From Acaricomes phytoseiuli DSM 14247 (GTDB taxonomy: Bacteria > Actinomycetota > Actinomycetes > Actinomycetales > Micrococcaceae), in assembly GCF_000376245.1 (NCBI RefSeq), contig NZ_AQXM01000062.1, forward strand, positions 62,001 through 126,000: a stretch of DNA of 64,000 nt, given 5' to 3'. Shown in pieces: positions 3,539-48,565 of this stretch. Each line of letters starts with the position of its first letter. Position 1 is the stretch's first letter. A program made the translations under genes and the position numbers. A model generated the notes under the pieces. The model saw nothing but the letters and a program-made list of their open reading frames with translations, did not search any database and was not told where the DNA came from.

Positions 3539-4579
3539 TTATTTCCCCTTCCGGTTGCCGGTTGCCGATTCCACGGCGTTAGCGCCCAAGAATCTGACGA
3601 AGATGAAGGCCACCAGGAAGATCACCAAGAAAGTGATCGTCGACAATGCCGAGGCCAGATTGAACCCGGACCTGATCTGATCGATGACCAGGATGGACAA
3701 GGTGGTGGTGCCATTGGCGCCTCCGGTGAGGATGAAGGGCAGATCGAACATCCGCAGCGCATCCAGAGTGCGGAAGAGAATGGCTACCATCAGTGCCGGC
3801 TTGACCATGGGCAGGGTGATCATCCGGAACCGCTGCCAGGCGGTGGTTCCATCGACCTTCGCCGCCTCGTAGACCTCCTTGGGGATCATCTGCAGGCCGG
3901 CCAAGATCAGCAACGCCATAAAAGGCGTGGTCTTCCAGGTGTCGGCGATGATGATCGCGAACTTCGCCGGCCACTCTTCCCCAGTCCAAAGGATCGCGGT
4001 GCCGAAGGTCTTGTTGATCACCCCGTCGAAGGCGAACATGAAGAAGAACAGCTTCGCGGTCACCGCGGTGGGAATCGCCCAGGGCACCAGCACCGCAGCA
4101 CGGACCAACCCCCGGCCGCGGAAGGTGCGCGCCATGATGACGGCCATCCAGAAGCCGATGATCGTCTCCAGGATGACGGTGACGATGGTGAAGAAGAAGG
4201 TGTTGCCGGTCGCCTCCCAGAACTGCGCGCCAAGAGTTCCGGCGGGGCAGCTTTGCGTCCCTTCCGCTGCCGGGCACTGCTGGAAGATCCAGGCGATGTA
4301 GTTGCCGAAGCCCGCGAAACCGCCCGGAGCGAAGAAGCCCTGCTCGTTGAGCACCGGGTCCTGCTGGAAGGACATCGCCACAGCGCTGACCACGGGGTAG
4401 CCGATCACCACCGCCAGCAGGAGCATGCTGGGGGCCAGAAGCCAGAACGCTGCCCGGTTCTGGAACTTAGGCGGCCTGCTGGCCGGCCCCGGTGAGGCCT
4501 TCTGCCCTTTTCCTGGAGGCGGTGCGCCGGCCTCCGCTTCGGTGTCCGTCATGACCGGCTGCTCTCTCGTGTTATCCAC
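3539..4579 (-). CDS. Carbohydrate ABC transporter permease (MalF type)
   Basis: Partner channel subunit of the CUT1 importer, 346 aa. The first 45 residues are hydrophilic and rich in Gly, Pro and Ala. Six or so transmembrane segments follow, and the EAA loop YEAAKVDGTTAWQRFRMITL is clear. The start shown is GTG at 4579; an internal ATG at 4552 (MTDTEAE) is an alternative. The long periplasmic loop containing CPAAEGTQSCPAGT has two cysteines that could form a disulfide. It lies downstream of the binding-protein gene after a gap of about 90 bp and immediately upstream of the MalG-type gene. Confidence 0.92.
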   Translation of the reverse strand: MDNTREQPVMTDTEAEAGAPPPGKGQKASPGPASRPPKFQNRAAFWLLAPSMLLLAVVIGYPVVSAVAMSFQQDPVLNEQGFFAPGGFAGFGNYIAWIFQQCPAAEGTQSCPAGTLGAQFWEATGNTFFFTIVTVILETIIGFWMAVIMARTFRGRGLVRAAVLVPWAIPTAVTAKLFFFMFAFDGVINKTFGTAILWTGEEWPAKFAIIIADTWKTTPFMALLILAGLQMIPKEVYEAAKVDGTTAWQRFRMITLPMVKPALMVAILFRTLDALRMFDLPFILTGGANGTTTLSILVIDQIRSGFNLASALSTITFLVIFLVAFIFVRFLGANAVESATGNRKGK

Positions 4580-4672: not shown

Positions 4673-5965
4673 TCATTTCACCCCGGCTGCCTCCATCGAC
4701 AGCTTCATATCCTGTATCGCCTGCTCCACGGTCTTCTCTCCGCGGATCGCAGCGTAGGCATTGGTCTGGACAGCTTTGGTCACCGCCGGGTAGAAGGGCG
4801 TGACCGGCCGCGGCACCGCCGAGTCGAGCGCCGTCCGCAGATCCGGCAGGTAAGGCATCTGGGCGACGAGCTCGGGATCGCTGTAAAGGCTCTCTCGGAC
4901 CGGTGCCAGGCTGCCTCCCATCGCCATGAAGCGGCCGCTGTCCTCGCTCATCATGAATTCGACGAAATCGCGCGCCGTGGCTTTGTTCTCCGAGAAGACG
5001 CTGATCGCCGAGCTGGAACCGCCCAGCGTCGATGCCCCCGGCCCGTCCTGCCCGGGAATCGAGGTAACCCCGAACTTGCCGGCCACCTCGGAGGAACCCT
5101 CTTTGCTGACCAGCGAGAAGACGTAGGGCCAGTTGCGCAGGAACATCAGCTGCCCGCTCTGGAAAGCCTGGCGGCTCTGCTCCTCCTGATAGGTCACCGC
5201 CTGCACGGGAATGTTGCCGTCCTGATAGGCGGTGGCCAGTGCTTGCAGGCCGGCCTTGGCTTCAGGGGTATCCAGGCTGAGGTTGCCGTTCTGATCCAGG
5301 ATGCGCCCGCCCGTGGAGTTGATCGCCTCGGATGCATTCACGGTCAAGCCCTCATAGTTGGCCAGCTGCCCTGCATAGCAGCCAATGCCATTCTCCTTGG
5401 CGATAGGGCACATGGCCATCATCTGATCCCAGGTGGTCGGCGGCTCAGGAACCAGATCCTTGCGGTAGTAGAGCAGCGCCCCATCGGTGAATCGTGGTGC
5501 GGCGAAGAGCTTGCCCTGGTAACTGGCAGCATCGATGGTCGCCGGTATCACTCCGGTGGTGTCAACCGCTAAAGGGCCTTCAAGCGGCTGGATCCAGCCA
5601 CGCGCAGCGAATTCGGCAGTCCAGACCACATCGACATTGACCACGTCGTAGTCGGAGTTCTGTGCCTGGAAATTGCGGACCAGATCGCTGCGCTGCTGAT
5701 CGGCCTGATCGGTCTGCTCTTTGAAAGTAACCTGCTCATCGGGCCGGGCTTCATTCCAGCGTTCCAGCAGTGGCCGGATGATGTCGTTATTGTCCTTGCC
5801 GCTGACGAAGGTGATCGGCCCGCGGCCTTCCAGGTTCTGCGTAGCGAACTCGGGATCCGTCACCGAGCTGTATGCGGCCAACGTGCCCGCTATCAAAGCC
5901 CCGGCGAAAACCGGCACCAAAATTCGAGCCCAGGGCCGCCGGCCCGGCTTGCGCTGATATTTCAC
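4673..5965 (-). CDS. Sugar ABC transporter substrate-binding protein, altered lipobox
   Basis: A 430-aa extracytoplasmic binding protein of the CUT1 (MalE-like) type, first gene of the leftward operon. The GTG start at 5965 has a GGGGAGAG ribosome-binding site 7-8 bases upstream. The N-terminus is basic (KYQRKPGRRPWAR), followed by the hydrophobic segment ILVPVFAGALIAGTLAAYSS. In actinobacterial relatives this position reads as a lipobox ending in Cys. Here residue 32 is Tyr (codon TAC at 5870-5872), so lipid attachment is not expected and the segment would act as a membrane anchor or ordinary signal. The rest is intact, including SDYDVVNVDVVWTAEFAARGW and the C-terminal YPAVTKAVQTNAYAAI. Confidence 0.9.
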   Translation of the reverse strand: MKYQRKPGRRPWARILVPVFAGALIAGTLAAYSSVTDPEFATQNLEGRGPITFVSGKDNNDIIRPLLERWNEARPDEQVTFKEQTDQADQQRSDLVRNFQAQNSDYDVVNVDVVWTAEFAARGWIQPLEGPLAVDTTGVIPATIDAASYQGKLFAAPRFTDGALLYYRKDLVPEPPTTWDQMMAMCPIAKENGIGCYAGQLANYEGLTVNASEAINSTGGRILDQNGNLSLDTPEAKAGLQALATAYQDGNIPVQAVTYQEEQSRQAFQSGQLMFLRNWPYVFSLVSKEGSSEVAGKFGVTSIPGQDGPGASTLGGSSSAISVFSENKATARDFVEFMMSEDSGRFMAMGGSLAPVRESLYSDPELVAQMPYLPDLRTALDSAVPRPVTPFYPAVTKAVQTNAYAAIRGEKTVEQAIQDMKLSMEAAGVK

Positions 5966-6069
5966 GCTTCTCTCCCCATCGAGACTGCGGATGCGACGCT
6001 TCCGGCACCTCCGGGCACCCCAGATCCGCTTGAGTGATTTCGCTCATACTAATAAGCTGCTCACGGAAA

Positions 6070-11461: not shown

Positions 11462-12598
11462 TCAGGGCATCTTGCCATGATCTTGTGGCGGTTTTGTGGC
11501 GTTTGCGGCTTCACGGCCCAACCCATCCATATGATCGGCGACACTGTCTAAGTCTTGGTCGAAAAGCTCTGCATACACCTCCAGGGTAATCCTCGGAGAG
11601 GCATGCCCCAGGAGTCGCTGGACGGCGAGGACTGATGCGCCTGAGCGTATCGCCCAAGATGCGGCTGTGTGCCTCAGGTCATGGACACGGAAGCCTGCAG
11701 GGAGATCAGCAGCTAGTACGGCTTGGTCGAAGTGGCGACGCTTGAAGTTCCTGGGATCAACTCGTGACCCTCGTGCCGAGGTGAATATGAGGTCGTCTCG
11801 TGACTTTCCGACGGTGTGACGTTGGAGCATTTCTTCAACGATGGCACCTACCGCAATAGTTCTAGGCTTACCGCTCTTGGGCGGTCCTACCTGCACTCCC
11901 CCGGGAAGGAATACAGCGGAGCGATTTATGGTCAGCCTCTTATGCCGAGCTTCGAGATCCCGTATACGTAATTCAATTGCTTCCCCGATCCGAAGCCCTG
12001 TCAGAGCTAGGAAGAGTGTGAGGTCTCGATAATCCGGCGTAATGACTGAGGTGAGGTGGCTGAGTTGCTCCGGCGTGAGGTAAACCTTTTCACGGGTAGG
12101 GGTTTTAGGGAGCTTCAATCCCGCTGCAGGGTTCTCAGCTATCCGTTTCCCGGCGATGGTCCATGCGAAAAATTGATAGAGGAACGTGCGCAATAGCTCC
12201 TTGGTCCGGGCTCCACGCGCCAATTCATTAAGCCATGACTGGAGTTGTGGCTGTGTTACTGCAGACAGGACTTCTCCACCTAGCTCGGGTTTTAGTGTGG
12301 TTGAGACTTGGCTCTTGACGCTTTCGAGGCTTGACGGTCGCAGGTGCACAAGCGTCTGAATCCAATCATCAAGGAGCGGACCCAAGAGTACGCGACCACT
12401 CTCTGGTGATATGTAAGTTCCAGACCGTCGATGGTGCTCAACCCACGTCAAATACTCTTCGGCGGCGGTCTTCGATTTGAAAGACTTCTTGCGCACCACT
12501 CCACCGGCAGTCCAGGTAGCCTGCCACCTGGAGCCGGTGCCGTAGCGGCTGGTACGTTTCCGGTCTTTGGTATGCCAAAGGTCAACTACTCTAGCCAT
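11462..12598 (-). CDS. int: Phage tyrosine-type site-specific integrase
   Basis: A 378-aa integrase with three parts: an N-terminal arm-binding domain (about 1-60, beginning MARVVDLWHTKDRKRTSRYG), a SAM-like core-binding domain (about 70-150) and a C-terminal catalytic domain. The catalytic residues are all present: Arg203 (TGLRIGEA), Lys241 (GPPKSGKPRT), His306 and Arg309 (HDLRHTAASW), His332 (LGHASP) and nucleophile Tyr342 (LEVYAEL). It is read towards attL, and its stop is 26 bp from the core. The protein should both insert and, with an excisionase, excise the element. Confidence 0.96.
   Translation of the reverse strand: MARVVDLWHTKDRKRTSRYGTGSRWQATWTAGGVVRKKSFKSKTAAEEYLTWVEHHRRSGTYISPESGRVLLGPLLDDWIQTLVHLRPSSLESVKSQVSTTLKPELGGEVLSAVTQPQLQSWLNELARGARTKELLRTFLYQFFAWTIAGKRIAENPAAGLKLPKTPTREKVYLTPEQLSHLTSVITPDYRDLTLFLALTGLRIGEAIELRIRDLEARHKRLTINRSAVFLPGGVQVGPPKSGKPRTIAVGAIVEEMLQRHTVGKSRDDLIFTSARGSRVDPRNFKRRHFDQAVLAADLPAGFRVHDLRHTAASWAIRSGASVLAVQRLLGHASPRITLEVYAELFDQDLDSVADHMDGLGREAANATKPPQDHGKMP
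11482..11504. promoter_or_regulatory. Left arm-type integrase binding repeats
   Basis: Two direct copies of the motif TTGTGGCG, 11 bp apart in register, lie inside the 3' end of the integrase gene near attL. The same motif occurs twice at 44270-44292 and twice inverted at 44341-44361 near attR. Such short repeats flanking the core are the usual arm sites for tyrosine integrases. Confidence 0.7.
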
Positions 12599-21375: not shown

Positions 21376-23835
21376 ATGACCACAAACCCCGCCCTGGACA
21401 CCGCCCTCACCCTCCACAAGCACGGCATCGCAGCAATCCCCGTCGCCACGGACGGCACCAAACGCCCCGCCATCCCCTGGAAACGCTTCCAAAAAGACCA
21501 ACCCGTGCTCGCTGAGCTGGATAGCTGGTTCGGACAGGATGGGTACGGCCTTGGGGTTATCACCGGCAAAGTGTCCGGAAACCTCGAAATGCTCGAAATC
21601 GAAGCCGCCGCCATCCCCCACCTAACAGAACTCGCCAAACTCGCACACGACACCGGCCTCGGACCCCTCTGGGACCGCATCAACACCGGATGGCTAGAAG
21701 CAAGCCCATCAGGCGGCATCCATTGGTTTTACGGCACCACCGAACCAGTACCCGGAAACACCAAACTCGCCAGCACCGTCACACACCAAACCCTCGCCGA
21801 AACCCGAGGGGAAGGCGGCTTCGTCGTTATCGCACCCACCACCGGCACCGCACACCCCACCGGCAAACCCTGGACCCGACTAGTCGGCGGACCAAACACT
21901 ATGCCGACCCTCACCACCGACGAACGCGACGCCCTCCACGCCCTCTTCCGAACCCTCAACCAGGCCAGACCCCATGAAGAGCACGGAAATCTATTTGACC
22001 CCCTAGACCAAGCCCTCACCACCCACGACGCCAGCAGCCCCGATGACGGTGTGCGCCCCGGCGACGACTACGAAAACAAAACCACCTGGGCGCAGATCCT
22101 CGAACCCCACGGATGGACGAAACTCTTCACCAGCGGCACCACCACCTATTGGCGTAGACCCGGCAAAACCACCGGCATCTCAGCCACCACCGGCCACGCC
22201 CAAGACCGCAACCGACTATTTGTTTTCACCACCTCCAGCATTTTCAACCCAGAAACCCCGTACACGAAGTTCGCCGCCTACGTCCTGCTCAATCATGGCG
22301 GGGACTACACCGCAGCAGCCCGCGAACTCAAAAACGCCGGGCACGGAAAACCGCCCACCACCAAGGCAAAAACCCGGCAACGAAACCTCACCCTCGCACC
22401 GCCAGCACCCGCCACCGACGGTACAGCAGCCTTGGCTACCGTCACCGAACTCAACCCACCTAGAAAAGTCACCCTCACCGACCACGGAAACGCCCAGCTC
22501 TTCATCACCAGACACGGCCACCAGCTCCGTTACGCCCCCTCACGTGGAAAATGGCTCCACTGGGACAACACCCGCTGGGCATGGCAAGAAGACGACTCCG
22601 AAGCCGTCCAGGCCGCCTGGGAAACCATCACCGCCCTAGAACCCCAAGATGACGCAGAACGCACCCACCAACACCGGTCCTTATCCCGCCGCGCCCTGGA
22701 AGCAACGGCAGCCCTCGCACGCCGCAGCAACGAAATCCGTGTCACCTCAGACCAACTCGACAACGAACCCCTACACCTCAACACCCCCACAGGGATCATC
22801 AACCTCACAACAGGCGCCACCGAACCACACGACCCCGCACGAATGCACACAAAAACAACGCTCATCGCTCCTGACCTGGACCTGCCAACGCCCCTCTGGG
22901 ACCGGCTACTCAACTACGCCTTCGAGACCCAACCCGAAACCATCACATTCATTCAAGACCTCATCGGATACGCCGCCACCGGCCAAGTCACCCACCACGT
23001 CCTCCCCTTCCTCTACGGCGCAGGCGGCAACGGCAAATCCGTATTCCTCGACACCATCACCGCCATCCTCGGCGACTACGCCACCTCCGCCCCCGCCGGA
23101 TTCCTCATGGCAGGCAGAGAACAACACGAAACCGAAATCGCACGCCTCGCAGGCACCCGCCTCGTCGTCTGCTCCGAAGTCAACCAACGCGACCGATTCG
23201 ACGAAGCAAAAGTCAAACTCCTCACCGGCGGCGACCGACTCACCGCCCGATTCATGAGACAAGACCACTTTTCATTCACACCCACCCACACCCTCTTCAT
23301 GATGGGCAACCACCAACCCCGCGTAGAATCCGGCGGCGGAGAATCCTTCTGGCGACGCCTACGCCTACTCCCCTTCACCCGGATCGTCCCCGAAAAAGAC
23401 CGCATCGAAAACCTCACACAACGCCTTTTAGCAGAGGAAGCCCCAGGCATCCTCGCCTGGATCATCAACGGAGCCCTCAACGTCCACCAGAACGGACTCA
23501 AAGCCCCCCAAGCAGTCCTAGCCGAAACCCAAGCCTACGCAGACGAAGAAGACGCACTAGCGCGCTTCGTAGCCGACCACGTCCACATCGGCGGCGGTGA
23601 CATCGTCAGAACCAACACCACCCACATACGAACCACCTACACCGCCTGGTGCCGGGCAAACGGCGAATACGAAGTATCCCCCCAAGTCTTCGGACGGGAA
23701 CTCAGAACCCGCTTCAACGTCCAACAAATACGCTCCAACGGCAAACGCTTCTACACCAACATGACACTCCTCGACACCGACGATTTAGACGAAGAGCAGA
23801 AGGCCGAAAACTGGCTAGACAGGCTCGACAAATGA
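21376..23835 (+). CDS. P4-family primase-helicase (Prim-Pol + SF3/D5 helicase), 819 aa
   Basis: The replication initiator-type enzyme of the phage. Residues about 1-190 form a bifunctional primase/polymerase domain (ALTLHKHGIAAIPVATDGTKRPAIPWKRF, then YGLGVITGKVSGNLEMLEIE). After a linker and D5_N-type region, the SF3 helicase has Walker A GAGGNGKS at residues 548-555, the Walker B-like segment RLVVCSEVN and the sensor-type FMMGNHQPRVESGGGESFWRRLRLLPF. A C-terminal winged-helix part follows. The coding strand is extremely C-rich and G-poor. The stop overlaps an ATG and is followed at once by an iteron array. Confidence 0.94.
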   Translation: MTTNPALDTALTLHKHGIAAIPVATDGTKRPAIPWKRFQKDQPVLAELDSWFGQDGYGLGVITGKVSGNLEMLEIEAAAIPHLTELAKLAHDTGLGPLWDRINTGWLEASPSGGIHWFYGTTEPVPGNTKLASTVTHQTLAETRGEGGFVVIAPTTGTAHPTGKPWTRLVGGPNTMPTLTTDERDALHALFRTLNQARPHEEHGNLFDPLDQALTTHDASSPDDGVRPGDDYENKTTWAQILEPHGWTKLFTSGTTTYWRRPGKTTGISATTGHAQDRNRLFVFTTSSIFNPETPYTKFAAYVLLNHGGDYTAAARELKNAGHGKPPTTKAKTRQRNLTLAPPAPATDGTAALATVTELNPPRKVTLTDHGNAQLFITRHGHQLRYAPSRGKWLHWDNTRWAWQEDDSEAVQAAWETITALEPQDDAERTHQHRSLSRRALEATAALARRSNEIRVTSDQLDNEPLHLNTPTGIINLTTGATEPHDPARMHTKTTLIAPDLDLPTPLWDRLLNYAFETQPETITFIQDLIGYAATGQVTHHVLPFLYGAGGNGKSVFLDTITAILGDYATSAPAGFLMAGREQHETEIARLAGTRLVVCSEVNQRDRFDEAKVKLLTGGDRLTARFMRQDHFSFTPTHTLFMMGNHQPRVESGGGESFWRRLRLLPFTRIVPEKDRIENLTQRLLAEEAPGILAWIINGALNVHQNGLKAPQAVLAETQAYADEEDALARFVADHVHIGGGDIVRTNTTHIRTTYTAWCRANGEYEVSPQVFGRELRTRFNVQQIRSNGKRFYTNMTLLDTDDLDEEQKAENWLDRLDK

Positions 23836-24095
23836 AACAAAATATCGGTCACTGCCCCAAAAACATAGCAGTGACCGACAGTGACCGATCAGTGACAGTA
23901 AAAAACGGTTACTGTCACTGCGAAAAACCGCTAAACCAAGCCTCAAAAGAAGGTGCAGTGACCGATAGTGACCGATATTTCTCCCGATCCGGCTATATCA
24001 AGATCATAGTTAACGCTAATCAGCGACAACTTAAACGCGCGCAGGGCGGGCTTATGAAATATCGGTCACTGCTGTCACTGCAAGGCACCACATGA
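23832..24095 (+). CDS. Possible small protein overlapping the iteron array, 87 aa (doubtful)
   Basis: The frame opens with an ATGA overlap on the primase stop and ends in an ATGA overlap on the next gene, as real genes do here. However its sequence is largely dictated by the iterons (VTDSDR occurs twice, VTVKNGYCHCEK between) and it is AT-richer than its neighbours. It may be fortuitous coding across the putative origin. Confidence 0.3.
   Translation: MKQNIGHCPKNIAVTDSDRSVTVKNGYCHCEKPLNQASKEGAVTDSDRYFSRSGYIKIIVNANQRQLKRAQGGLMKYRSLLSLQGTT
23842..24080. repeat. Iteron array, putative phage replication origin
   Basis: About nine copies of a CAGTGACCGAT-type motif occur in both orientations. 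Plus-strand copies begin at 23869, 23879, 23890, 23956 and 23967. Complementary copies lie at 23842-23854, 23909-23920, 24059-24071 and 24072-24080. The outer two copies share ATATCGGTCACTG. An AT-rich stretch (about 23975-24020) lies between them. Position directly after the primase-helicase gene fits an initiator-binding origin. Confidence 0.7.
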
Positions 24096-24553
24096 AACAG
24101 CAAATCCTCTTCCACGCCACCCCAAGTCCAATCAAAAAACCATGGGCCGCTGGCATCCCCGACTGGGTCATCCAAGCCACCCAGGCCCAGCCCACCCGCA
24201 TAAGCGCCACAGCCAGACTCGAACCCTGCCCACGATGCCAGCAACCGACCCTCCACGCACTCGACGCAGGACACGACAACTGCGACACCACCCGGATAGA
24301 CCTAACACTGCTCACCAACACCGACGAACTCCAGGCACTCGTCAACGGAAGAACCACCCACGAACTCATCACACGTATCACCGGCATCAGCCTCCACATC
24401 CGCAACAGCTCACGCATCAGCTGGAACCCCGCCAACACCAGCACCACACCCGTCGCACCCAGCCACCAATGCGGACAAATCCTTGGCTACCCGATCCCCT
24501 GGAACCTCATCTACACACAACCGAAAGGAACCAACCATGAACCGCCCTTCTAA
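24092..24553 (+). CDS. Phage protein with zinc-binding cysteines, 153 aa
   Basis: Starts MKQQILFHATPSPIKKPWAAGIPDWV. A zinc-ribbon-like element PCPRCQQPTLHALDAGHDNC (about 46-65) has Cys-x2-Cys and His/Cys ligands. A helical part follows (TNTDELQALVNGRTTHELITRI), and SHQCGQ near the end adds a further Cys. The coding strand is C-rich like the primase. A nucleic-acid-binding role is possible but unproven. It overlaps the next gene by 17 bp. Confidence 0.7.
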   Translation: MKQQILFHATPSPIKKPWAAGIPDWVIQATQAQPTRISATARLEPCPRCQQPTLHALDAGHDNCDTTRIDLTLLTNTDELQALVNGRTTHELITRITGISLHIRNSSRISWNPANTSTTPVAPSHQCGQILGYPIPWNLIYTQPKGTNHEPPF

Positions 24554-44292: not shown

Positions 44293-44340
44293 CAATCACT
44301 GCAGGCCGCTGCAAATCGTTGTAAATAAAGGGCTCTTTAT

Positions 44341-44361
44341 CGCCACAAAAACGCCACAAAC
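44341..44361. promoter_or_regulatory. Right arm-type integrase repeats, inverted pair
   Basis: CGCCACAAAAACGCCACAAA is the complement of the arm motif, again two copies. With the direct pair at 44270-44292 it brackets about 48 bases. Integrase and Xis are expected to bind here. Confidence 0.65.
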
Positions 44362-44366
44362 ATACG

Positions 44367-44415
44367 AAACCCCGCCAGTTCAAGGCCTCTAGTTCCTTGA
44401 ATTGGCGGGGTTTTT
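44367..44415. terminator. Terminator of the captured tRNA 3' end, also facing the lysis genes
   Basis: A 19-bp stem (44367-44385 with 44395-44413), one G-U pair, followed by TTTTT on the plus strand and an A-run on the other side. On the minus strand it lies just downstream of the tRNA-like fragment, as in a real tRNA gene, and on the plus strand it ends the late phage operon. Confidence 0.85.
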
Positions 44416-44422
44416 CGTGTTG

Positions 44423-44455
44423 TCGGGATGACAGGATTTGAACCTGCGACCCCTT
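44423..44455 (-). pseudogene. 3' tRNA fragment (tRNA-Pro-like) carried in the attachment site
   Basis: Read on the minus strand, this is a variable loop, a T-arm GCAGG-TTCAAAT-CCTGT and an acceptor 3' strand CATCCCGA. The sequence resembles the end of actinobacterial tRNA-Pro. The core repeat TGACTGCCCGTCA lies where the anticodon arm would be. The 5' half is missing because beyond the core lies SDR sequence. Confidence 0.75.
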
Positions 44456-44467
44456 GACTGCCCGTCA
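44455..44467. other. attR: attR core, 13 bp
   Basis: TGACTGCCCGTCA, identical to attL (11424-11436). Prophage DNA with the tRNA-like fragment lies on the left and the SDR N-terminal part on the right. Confidence 0.88.
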
Positions 44468-44954
44468 GAACATCTCCCGGGACCACCGCAGGTCCAGTAG
44501 CAGCCCCCGAGAACGTCTGAGCGAAGAGCTTGGTCAGAAGCACTGCGGACCGCGTATTGGTGAAGAAATGGCGATCCAGCATGCCGGAATCGACATCTAG
44601 GATCGATCCATCCGATCCGCTCATCGCATGATTGCAGACAAGGATGTCCAAAGAACCGGTGAGAGTTCGAGCCTGCTCGATAAGAGCTGATGGAGCATCC
44701 GGTTCGGCAAGATCGACGGAGAGCTCACCGAAAGCCGCACCATCAGTCAGACTTTCGGCGAGCTCCTTGCGTAATGCCTCGAAGTCATCGCCACCCCAGG
44801 GCTGCTGTTCATCATGAGGTGAATAGTGGGCGATGAAGACACTGGCCCCATCTTCGACGAACCGCTTAGCGATAGCGAAGCCGATGCCCTGCCTGCGTGA
44901 AACCCCCGTGACCAAAGCCGTCCGCCCGGATAACGGCAATGCGCGCTCAGTCAT
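44455..44954 (-). pseudogene. Short-chain dehydrogenase, N-terminal part, cut off by the prophage
   Basis: ATG at 44954, Rossmann fold motif TGVSRRQGIGFAIAKRF and the NAD-binding core LDILVCNHAMSG. At attR the frame enters phage DNA and continues as a foreign tail (QGVAGSNPVIPTTRKT...) to a stop at 44337, so a fusion of 205 aa lacking the catalytic Tyr-Lys pair could be made. With the left part the gene restores a 294-residue SDR. Confidence 0.9.
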
Positions 44955-47554: not shown

Positions 47555-48565
47555 TCAGACGTTGCCGAGCATGGGGCCGAAGCGCTCCCGATCATCCAGC
47601 CTCGGATCTTCTTGATCGCGGACCACCATGACCGGACCTTTGGCGTGGTGCAGCACCCCGTCTGTCGTCGAGCCGAGGATCATCCCGGCGAAACCGCCAT
47701 GACCACGGGTGCCGAGCACCACCAGCTCGGAGGTCTTCGTCGCTTCGACCAGGGTTTCCACCGGCACACCATCAACCACATCGGCGGTGATCTCCAGCTG
47801 TGGGAAGTGATGCTGCAACCAGGCTTTACCGGCTTCCAGTTGCTCGGCGATTTCCTTCAGGAGCTCCTCCCGGTTCGCCCCTGAAGGCAACCAGGCCGCA
47901 GCACCGGTCAAGGGCGGCACCGCACAGAGAACGCGCAAGGAGTATCCGCAGCGCTGAGCTTCCTCCGCCGCCTGGAGCACGGCATAACGCGCCTGCTGGG
48001 AGCCATCGACGCCTACACTGACCATCGGATGGATCCGAGCCTGCGCCGGGGTCTGCGCCGTCTTGCCCGGCTCGTTCAGGCGGTCCGCACAGCTGAGCGG
48101 TACCGTGACCGTGGGGCACAAGGAATGGGCCGGCAGAGCCGAGGAGACGGAGCCGAGCAGACGCCCTACGAAGCCGCCCCGGCCGCGCGAGCCGAAGACT
48201 AGCAGCTCAGCGGTTTTCGACATCTGCTGCAGAACACTGGAGGGATCCCCCGAGACAACCCTGGCATCAAAGTCCACACCGGCCCCAGCAACCCTCTGCA
48301 TGGCCTGTTCCACGATGGCGCGGGCACCCTGCGCGATCACTTCTTCATCTACCGTGGCAGAGCCGCCGTCCAGCCCGGAAGCGGCGAATATCGGCACCGA
48401 ATAAGCGGTGACGATATGCAAGGTCTGCTGCCGCTGGCGGGCTTCCTGAACCGCCCAGAGCAAAGCGCAATCACCGTGCTCGGAACCATCCACGCCGACG
48501 ACGATGCCGGTGGGTGCCACGGGCGCAGATTCTGCTTCGACTTTTGCGTCGCCGGAATCTGTCAT
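47555..48565 (-). CDS. Tandem universal stress protein, 336 aa
   Basis: Two Usp domains in one chain. Each begins with IVVGVDGSE or VSVGVDGSQ and ends with the ATP-binding pattern: FGSRGRGGFVGRLLGSVS in the first, GTRGHGGFAGMILGSTT in the second. Such tandem proteins in actinobacteria bind ATP and respond to hypoxia, stationary phase or other stress. ATG 48565, single gene. Confidence 0.94.
   Translation of the reverse strand: MTDSGDAKVEAESAPVAPTGIVVGVDGSEHGDCALLWAVQEARQRQQTLHIVTAYSVPIFAASGLDGGSATVDEEVIAQGARAIVEQAMQRVAGAGVDFDARVVSGDPSSVLQQMSKTAELLVFGSRGRGGFVGRLLGSVSSALPAHSLCPTVTVPLSCADRLNEPGKTAQTPAQARIHPMVSVGVDGSQQARYAVLQAAEEAQRCGYSLRVLCAVPPLTGAAAWLPSGANREELLKEIAEQLEAGKAWLQHHFPQLEITADVVDGVPVETLVEATKTSELVVLGTRGHGGFAGMILGSTTDGVLHHAKGPVMVVRDQEDPRLDDRERFGPMLGNV

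Follow-up and report, generated by a model that had tools for sequence, protein, structure and literature searches.

An iteron array directly behind a prophage primase-helicase gene of Acaricomes phytoseiuli is a likely phage replication origin

Introduction

The Rep helicases of SaPI elements recognise, by means of a C-terminal domain, iterons that lie directly downstream of their own gene, and residues 400–538 of SCCmec Cch2 bind AAGTG iterons directly downstream of the Cch2 gene (PMC7581432). The alpha protein of phage P4 binds the repeats of the P4 origin and then unwinds and primes; its primase part is of the bacterial (Toprim) type, a difference from the protein considered here (PMC4234260). 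ORF904 of pRN1 joins a PrimPol part and an SF3 helicase to a C-terminal winged helix, and a stem-loop origin is found just downstream of its gene (PMC4234260).

Annotated origins are also present in two phage records. The rep_origin of Lactobacillus phage A2 (AJ251789) starts where the primase gene ends, and in Streptococcus phage Sfi21 the annotated origin, a 302-bp non-coding region (phage inhibitory sequence), follows a putative primase gene. Origin annotation was absent from all of the actinophage records examined. The locus described here lies in a 64-kb stretch of the A. phytoseiuli genome (the window, meaning the whole stretch that was analysed), for which a sequence-only reading had suggested a likely phage origin behind a primase-helicase gene. 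That suggestion is supported by the conservation of repeats with the primase, by the iterons of the nearest relative and by the annotated A2 and Sfi21 origins, which occupy the same place.

Results

The iteron array and its prophage setting

The prophage in which the window lies is temperate and has genes for an integrase (11462–12598, minus strand), an exonuclease (17072), a Holliday-junction resolvase (24734), a terminase (27025) and a portal protein (28287), as well as a tape measure protein and an endolysin. Two minus-strand genes, for a FabG-like reductase (44337–44954) and a universal stress protein (47555–48565), probably belong to the host and lie close to the right end of the prophage or outside it. 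The array, annotated here as a putative replication origin on the basis of motif scans and conserved placement across relatives, spans 23842–24080 with no strand assigned. It follows at once upon the primase stop codon at 23835, as had been claimed from the sequence, and ends ahead of the next start codon at 24092; the 256-bp gap between the two genes is non-coding and holds the repeats.

Reading from the left, the array opens with an exact ATCGGTCACTG in reverse orientation (23844–23854, minus strand), followed on the plus strand by CAGTGACCGAC (23869–23879) and, 10 bp after it, CAGTGACCGAT (23879–23889). An iteron-like CAGTGACAGTAA and its inverted copy TTACTGTCACTG (23890–23920) then form a perfect inverted repeat of 12 bp whose loop is 7 nt long. 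The core consists of a left tandem pair, CAGTGACCGAT and TAGTGACCGAT, 10 bp apart on the plus strand (23956–23976), and a right tandem pair, ATCGGTCACTG and CTGTCACTG, 9 bp apart on the minus strand (24061–24080), which faces the left pair across a moderately AT-rich spacer (23977–24060).

All four exact copies of CAGTGACCGAT in the window fall inside 23844–24071, and six of its seven copies with up to one mismatch are in the array, as are 10 copies of CAGTGACCG with up to one mismatch. The shorter motif CAGTGAC occurs eight times exactly in the array, counting both strands, and seven times in the other 63.7 kb of the window; in 5000 first-order Markov shuffles of the 239-bp segment, the mean count was 0.03 and the maximum 2. 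The 12-mer CAGTGACCGATA has three matches in the whole 2.42-Mb genome, all of them inside the array. The motif counts against shuffles and the genome-wide uniqueness of the 12-mer rule out chance, and the roughly nine motifs in both orientations noticed in the sequence-only reading are real. Its near-symmetric (mirror) outer pair did not hold: the outermost 16-mers (AAATATCGGTCACTGC, at 23840–23855 and 24057–24072) are identical direct repeats, and the inverted pairs are the inner ones. The AT-rich middle was right in direction, with up to 70% A+T per 30 bp near 23993, but the enrichment is moderate only (53% over the 92-bp gap, compared with 40% for the window).

The primase-helicase and its predicted winged helix

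The candidate initiator is an 819-residue primase-helicase (21376–23835, plus strand), assigned using Pfam, PHROG and AlphaFold2. It comprises an N-terminal PrimPol-like part, D5_N (residues 373–516), an SF3-type DUF5906 core (546–661) and a C-terminal winged helix (approximately 726–799). Pfam matches were obtained for D5_N (E 2e-24) and DUF5906 (E 3e-12), and the PHROG match was to DNA polymerase/primase (E 3e-178), which relates the N-terminal half to DNA primase/polymerase proteins of phages. By sequence, residues 462–777 match 7ola, a DNA primase chain of solved structure (profile E 7e-18).

The predicted winged-helix DNA-binding domain is encoded at 23551–23772 (plus strand) according to the structure model. 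For residues 690–819, an AlphaFold2 model built with 37 homologues gave a confident winged helix (mean pLDDT 88). Structural alignment placed RFX DNA-binding domains at the top (Z 10.9 and 10.6), followed by the origin-binding domain of phage P4 (1ka8; Z 8.7, 2.6 Å over 80 residues) and by the C-terminal part of PrimPol from African swine fever virus (Z 8.2); by Foldseek alone, RFX and viral PrimPol ranked first, with a best E of 3.8e-3. The match to the P4 fold is functionally telling but of medium strength, and a winged helix alone is no proof of origin binding. No Rep family was found among the neighbouring genes searched with Pfam and PHROG, and the gene adjacent to the array is the primase-helicase; a RepA or RepB gene beside the iterons, the mark of a plasmid-type RepA/iteron origin, was not seen.

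Arrays behind homologous primases

A search of public genomes, IMG/VR and phage records for homologues of the primase gave 153 non-redundant relatives. An array was scored where a 7-mer, counted on both strands in the first 350 bases past the primase stop codon, was over-represented with at least five copies and beat every shuffle. Arrays were scored behind the primase in 49 of the 153 relatives, and almost none in control segments: 0/144 in the 350 bases upstream of the gene, 4/155 in its last 350 bases, 2/110 at 1.5 kb and 2/89 at 2.5 kb away. An independent set of 75 homologues, in which no primase is 85% or more identical to one of the first set, gave arrays in 39, with 1/72, 4/75 and 1/54 in the control segments. 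Conservation of the repeat with the primase in related phages, which had been proposed as a check, was thus found. By this 7-mer shuffle test, about half to two thirds of the relatives have no array; the counts are lower bounds, because the test misses the true arrays of A2, TM4, L039 and L048. A scan of genome contigs with the single primase protein gave no match.

Iterons vary from phage to phage (CAGTGACCG, GGTGGCACA, AGTGACACAACTTT, GGTGCCGGTT, AGTGTCGGATA, AGCACAGAT, AGGGACAT and ACGGGAGGAT), with a G-N-C pattern, often followed by GAT, common to many. Although the iteron sequence changes, the layout and the 9–11-bp tandem spacing remain constant between phages; same-strand neighbours are 9 bp apart in 56 of 128 pairs, and mainly 10–12 bp apart in the remainder. 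Similarity between iterons tracks similarity between primases (Mantel r 0.24–0.36, p<0.001). Partial correlations were about equal for the helicase core (r 0.15) and the winged helix (r 0.18), so that co-evolution of the iterons with the winged helix in particular is inseparable from overall relatedness. A universal GTG priming site within the iteron was considered because the pRN1 primase starts at GTG (PMC4234260); it was rejected, since many arrays are without GTG (ATGACGC, AGGGACA and AACGGCA).

In the nearest relative (L062/L228), the primase is 56% identical and the array follows the gene at a distance of 1.7 kb. The array repeats the order seen in the window, with one reverse iteron, three forward, two reverse, two forward and then a reverse one, and its left pair, AGTGACCGATAGTGACCGAT, is the counterpart of the left tandem pair of the window. 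Alignment of the window with L228 gave 93% identity in the iteron cores and 48% in the spacers. Binding sites that are kept while the array shifts relative to the gene are most simply recognised by a protein acting in trans. A GGGTGCCGCA array is likewise present about 350 bp after the primase in Gordonia phage GMA4 (L048, approximately 5720–6035); from these two displaced cases, the array need not touch the gene. In Mycobacterium phage TM4 (L051), ATGACGGAT iterons at approximately 3860–4040 overlap the primase gene at its end and gp71 at its annotated start; this array is a candidate origin, its count falling just under the threshold of the test. On contig 3 of G844, two primase homologues (L293 and L307) lie about 9 kb apart, one of them with an internal TGA, and are possibly tandem prophages or include a broken copy.

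The search was also run from iteron to protein, using the pair pattern CAGTGACCG..AGTGACCG against IMG/VR. This matched 68 stretches, compared with a rough chance estimate of 27; eight of the 68 were array-like, and four of these eight carry a homologous primase, one being L062/L228. CAGTGAC arrays were also observed on stretches where no D5 primase was seen in the part examined: L263 (2354–2786) and L274 (69–991), both listed under IMGVR_UViG_3300007764_000003, L277 (3982–4043; near-perfect 10-bp tandem copies) and L289 (nine copies on a single strand). These may serve another initiator or a repressor.

An alternating purine-pyrimidine tract between convergent iterons

Most array-bearing relatives carry an alternating purine-pyrimidine tract, mainly of CG/CA steps, in the space that separates the last forward iteron from the first reverse one. 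The sequence-only reading had not anticipated this element; in most actinobacterial relatives, the iterons stand as two convergent pairs on either side of it. Alternating runs of at least 12 were present in 32 of 51 arrays (63%), compared with 16% of shuffles and 2–6% of control segments from the same loci, and runs of at least 16 in 17 of 51 arrays and no control segment. Among tracts of at least 10, 26 of 37 lie between a forward and a reverse iteron, where 7.9 would be expected, and the gap from the left iteron pair to the tract had a median of 20.5 bp (interquartile range 19–22) in the first set. The pattern was seen again in the independent set: a tract was found in 32 of 39 arrays, 30 of 34 tracts of at least 11 lie between oppositely oriented iterons, and the left gap had a median of 21 bp (interquartile range 20–24). 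Alternating runs of at least 16 were also observed in 12 of 100 relatives in which no array was detected, an enrichment behind primases which suggests that diverged iterons were missed by the test.

By nearest-neighbour energies, 29 of 32 relatives have a tract that is more stable than the DNA around it. An easily melted tract was therefore ruled out for the relatives, and simple melting is no explanation for it. The tract of L228 is longer than that of the window, and phage A2 has (TA)n at the tract position. The window itself carries a rudimentary 9-bp alternating tract, ACGCGCGCA (24035–24043, no strand assigned), which ends 21 bp before the right pair; it sits where relatives have tracts of 12–29 bp, and by itself is within chance and not significant. 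No description of alternating or Z-DNA tracts at phage origins was found in a literature search, most subscription journals being outside its reach.

Taken together, the tract data tip the balance somewhat towards an undescribed origin element shared by actinobacterial PrimPol-SF3 phages, in which convergent iteron pairs would frame a (CG/CA)n tract of 12–29 bp placed about 20 bp, or two helical turns, after the left pair. The tract, stabler than its surroundings and so no ordinary AT-rich melting element, could switch to Z-DNA or serve as a flexible pyrimidine-purine hinge at the meeting point of two hexamers. Relatives of low GC content seemingly have (TA)n at this position, and the 9-bp tract of the window would be a remnant.

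Alternative explanations for the array

The repeats could instead be regulatory, an array of the operator or stoperator type to which a phage repressor binds in place of the primase. Repressor arrays, too, typically consist of short asymmetric repeats in both orientations, and the CAGTGAC arrays of L263/L274, L277 and L289 occur where no D5 primase was seen. Against this, the copies in the window are confined to one 240-bp non-coding block and are not spread over promoters, with a single weak promoter-like match (23816–23843), and the position of the array tracks the primase across hosts and motif types and coincides with annotated origins. A repressor array is consequently considered unlikely.

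The array strand folds far better than shuffled sequences (−59 kcal/mol, z −9.7), as would be expected if a large hairpin were the recognised element and the repeats merely its arms. Such a stem-loop lies downstream of the PrimPol-SF3-winged-helix gene of pRN1, and the same has been proposed for phage BIP-1 (PMC4234260). The pRN1-type origin is a large stem-loop without iterons, whereas the strong fold seen here is built from tandem and inverted iterons. We regard a pRN1-type origin as improbable, because inverted iterons must give a strong fold as a consequence and the tandem copies would be left unexplained; same-strand copies 9–11 bp apart, which are irrelevant to a hairpin, are the commonest feature in the relatives. 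Conservation points the same way, the spacers falling to 48% identity while the iteron cores remain at 93%.

A transcription terminator, an attenuator or another RNA element behind the primase gene would also account for a strong fold between two same-strand genes. No terminator-like site was found in 23700–24300, however, and the L062/L228 array is conserved though 1.7 kb from the gene. An RNA element would again leave the tandem same-strand repeats unexplained, and we consider it very improbable.

An overlying frame (GTG start, 23649–24095, 148 residues) is open across the array, and it matches L062/L228 over 39 residues at 59%. That the frame is a real gene and the repeats coding can nevertheless be dismissed with near certainty: its G+C by codon position over the array (0.52/0.43/0.48, against 0.63/0.48/0.71 for the primase) lacks a coding signature, the L228 match is to the iterons themselves in DNA where gaps of 1 and 23 bases break the frame, and no match was found in any other locus, in keeping with the earlier suspicion that the frame is non-coding.

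Discussion

The array is very probably the lytic replication origin of the prophage, with the primase-helicase encoded immediately upstream as its initiator. In the mechanism that we infer from the protein families named above, the primase-helicase would load itself at the origin: the C-terminal winged helix of the primase would bind the 10–11-bp iterons (core AGTGACCGAT), and the outer forward cluster would recruit the primase-helicase. The convergent tandem pairs (forward at 23956–23976 and reverse at 24061–24080) would then place two SF3 hexamers on the spacer in head-to-head orientation. There the hexamers would distort the DNA and open it, and the first primers would come from the N-terminal PrimPol part. 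Iteron binding, assembly of a double hexamer, melting of the spacer, priming and the start of replication at the array are all predicted steps.

An origin behind the primase gene is an arrangement known from a few viruses, and the arrangement recurs here in dozens of relatives with a shared, rarely noticed layout. The resulting rule, 10-bp iterons in convergent pairs in the gap after a PrimPol/D5 gene, predicts origins for dozens of such phages. The predicted origins include those of phages that serve as genetic tools (TM4, for example) and supply small replicons to test. With a Z-DNA-prone tract fixed between the convergent pairs, the question also arises as to how SF3 double hexamers open a GC-rich origin without an AT-rich melting element.

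The locus belongs to a kind of origin that is already known (SaPI/P4/A2-like), and what may be new is the family-wide tract between convergent iteron pairs. As in SaPI Rep/ori and SCCmec Cch2, an SF3/D5 helicase has iterons adjoining its own gene, here with a primase in the same protein and a predicted C-terminal winged helix, and the staphylococcal element PI-Sepi-HH2 similarly carries seven copies of ATAAGAC after its homologue. The SaPI and SCCmec systems differ in being low-GC satellite elements with different iterons and an AT-rich centre. The winged-helix origin-binding domain of P4 alpha has the same fold as the predicted C-terminus of the window's protein, and the iteron sequence differs. 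Compared with pRN1, which has a stem-loop without iterons, the window has tandem and inverted iterons. Like the window, Sfi21 has repeats after the gene in non-coding DNA of about 300 bp, here annotated as the origin; its GTTACT/AGTAAC repeats are within the shuffle range and its centre is very AT-rich, and the likeness is one of position. For A2, the primase immediately upstream is homologous to that of the window, 31% identical over 98% of the helicase-winged-helix half (E 9e-63). A2 differs from the window in its iteron sequence, its AT-rich centre, its low-GC host and the separate helicase and SSB genes that precede the primase, but shares with it several iterons, ACGGGAG(GAT), in both orientations and in excess of shuffles, with an alternating TA tract between them.
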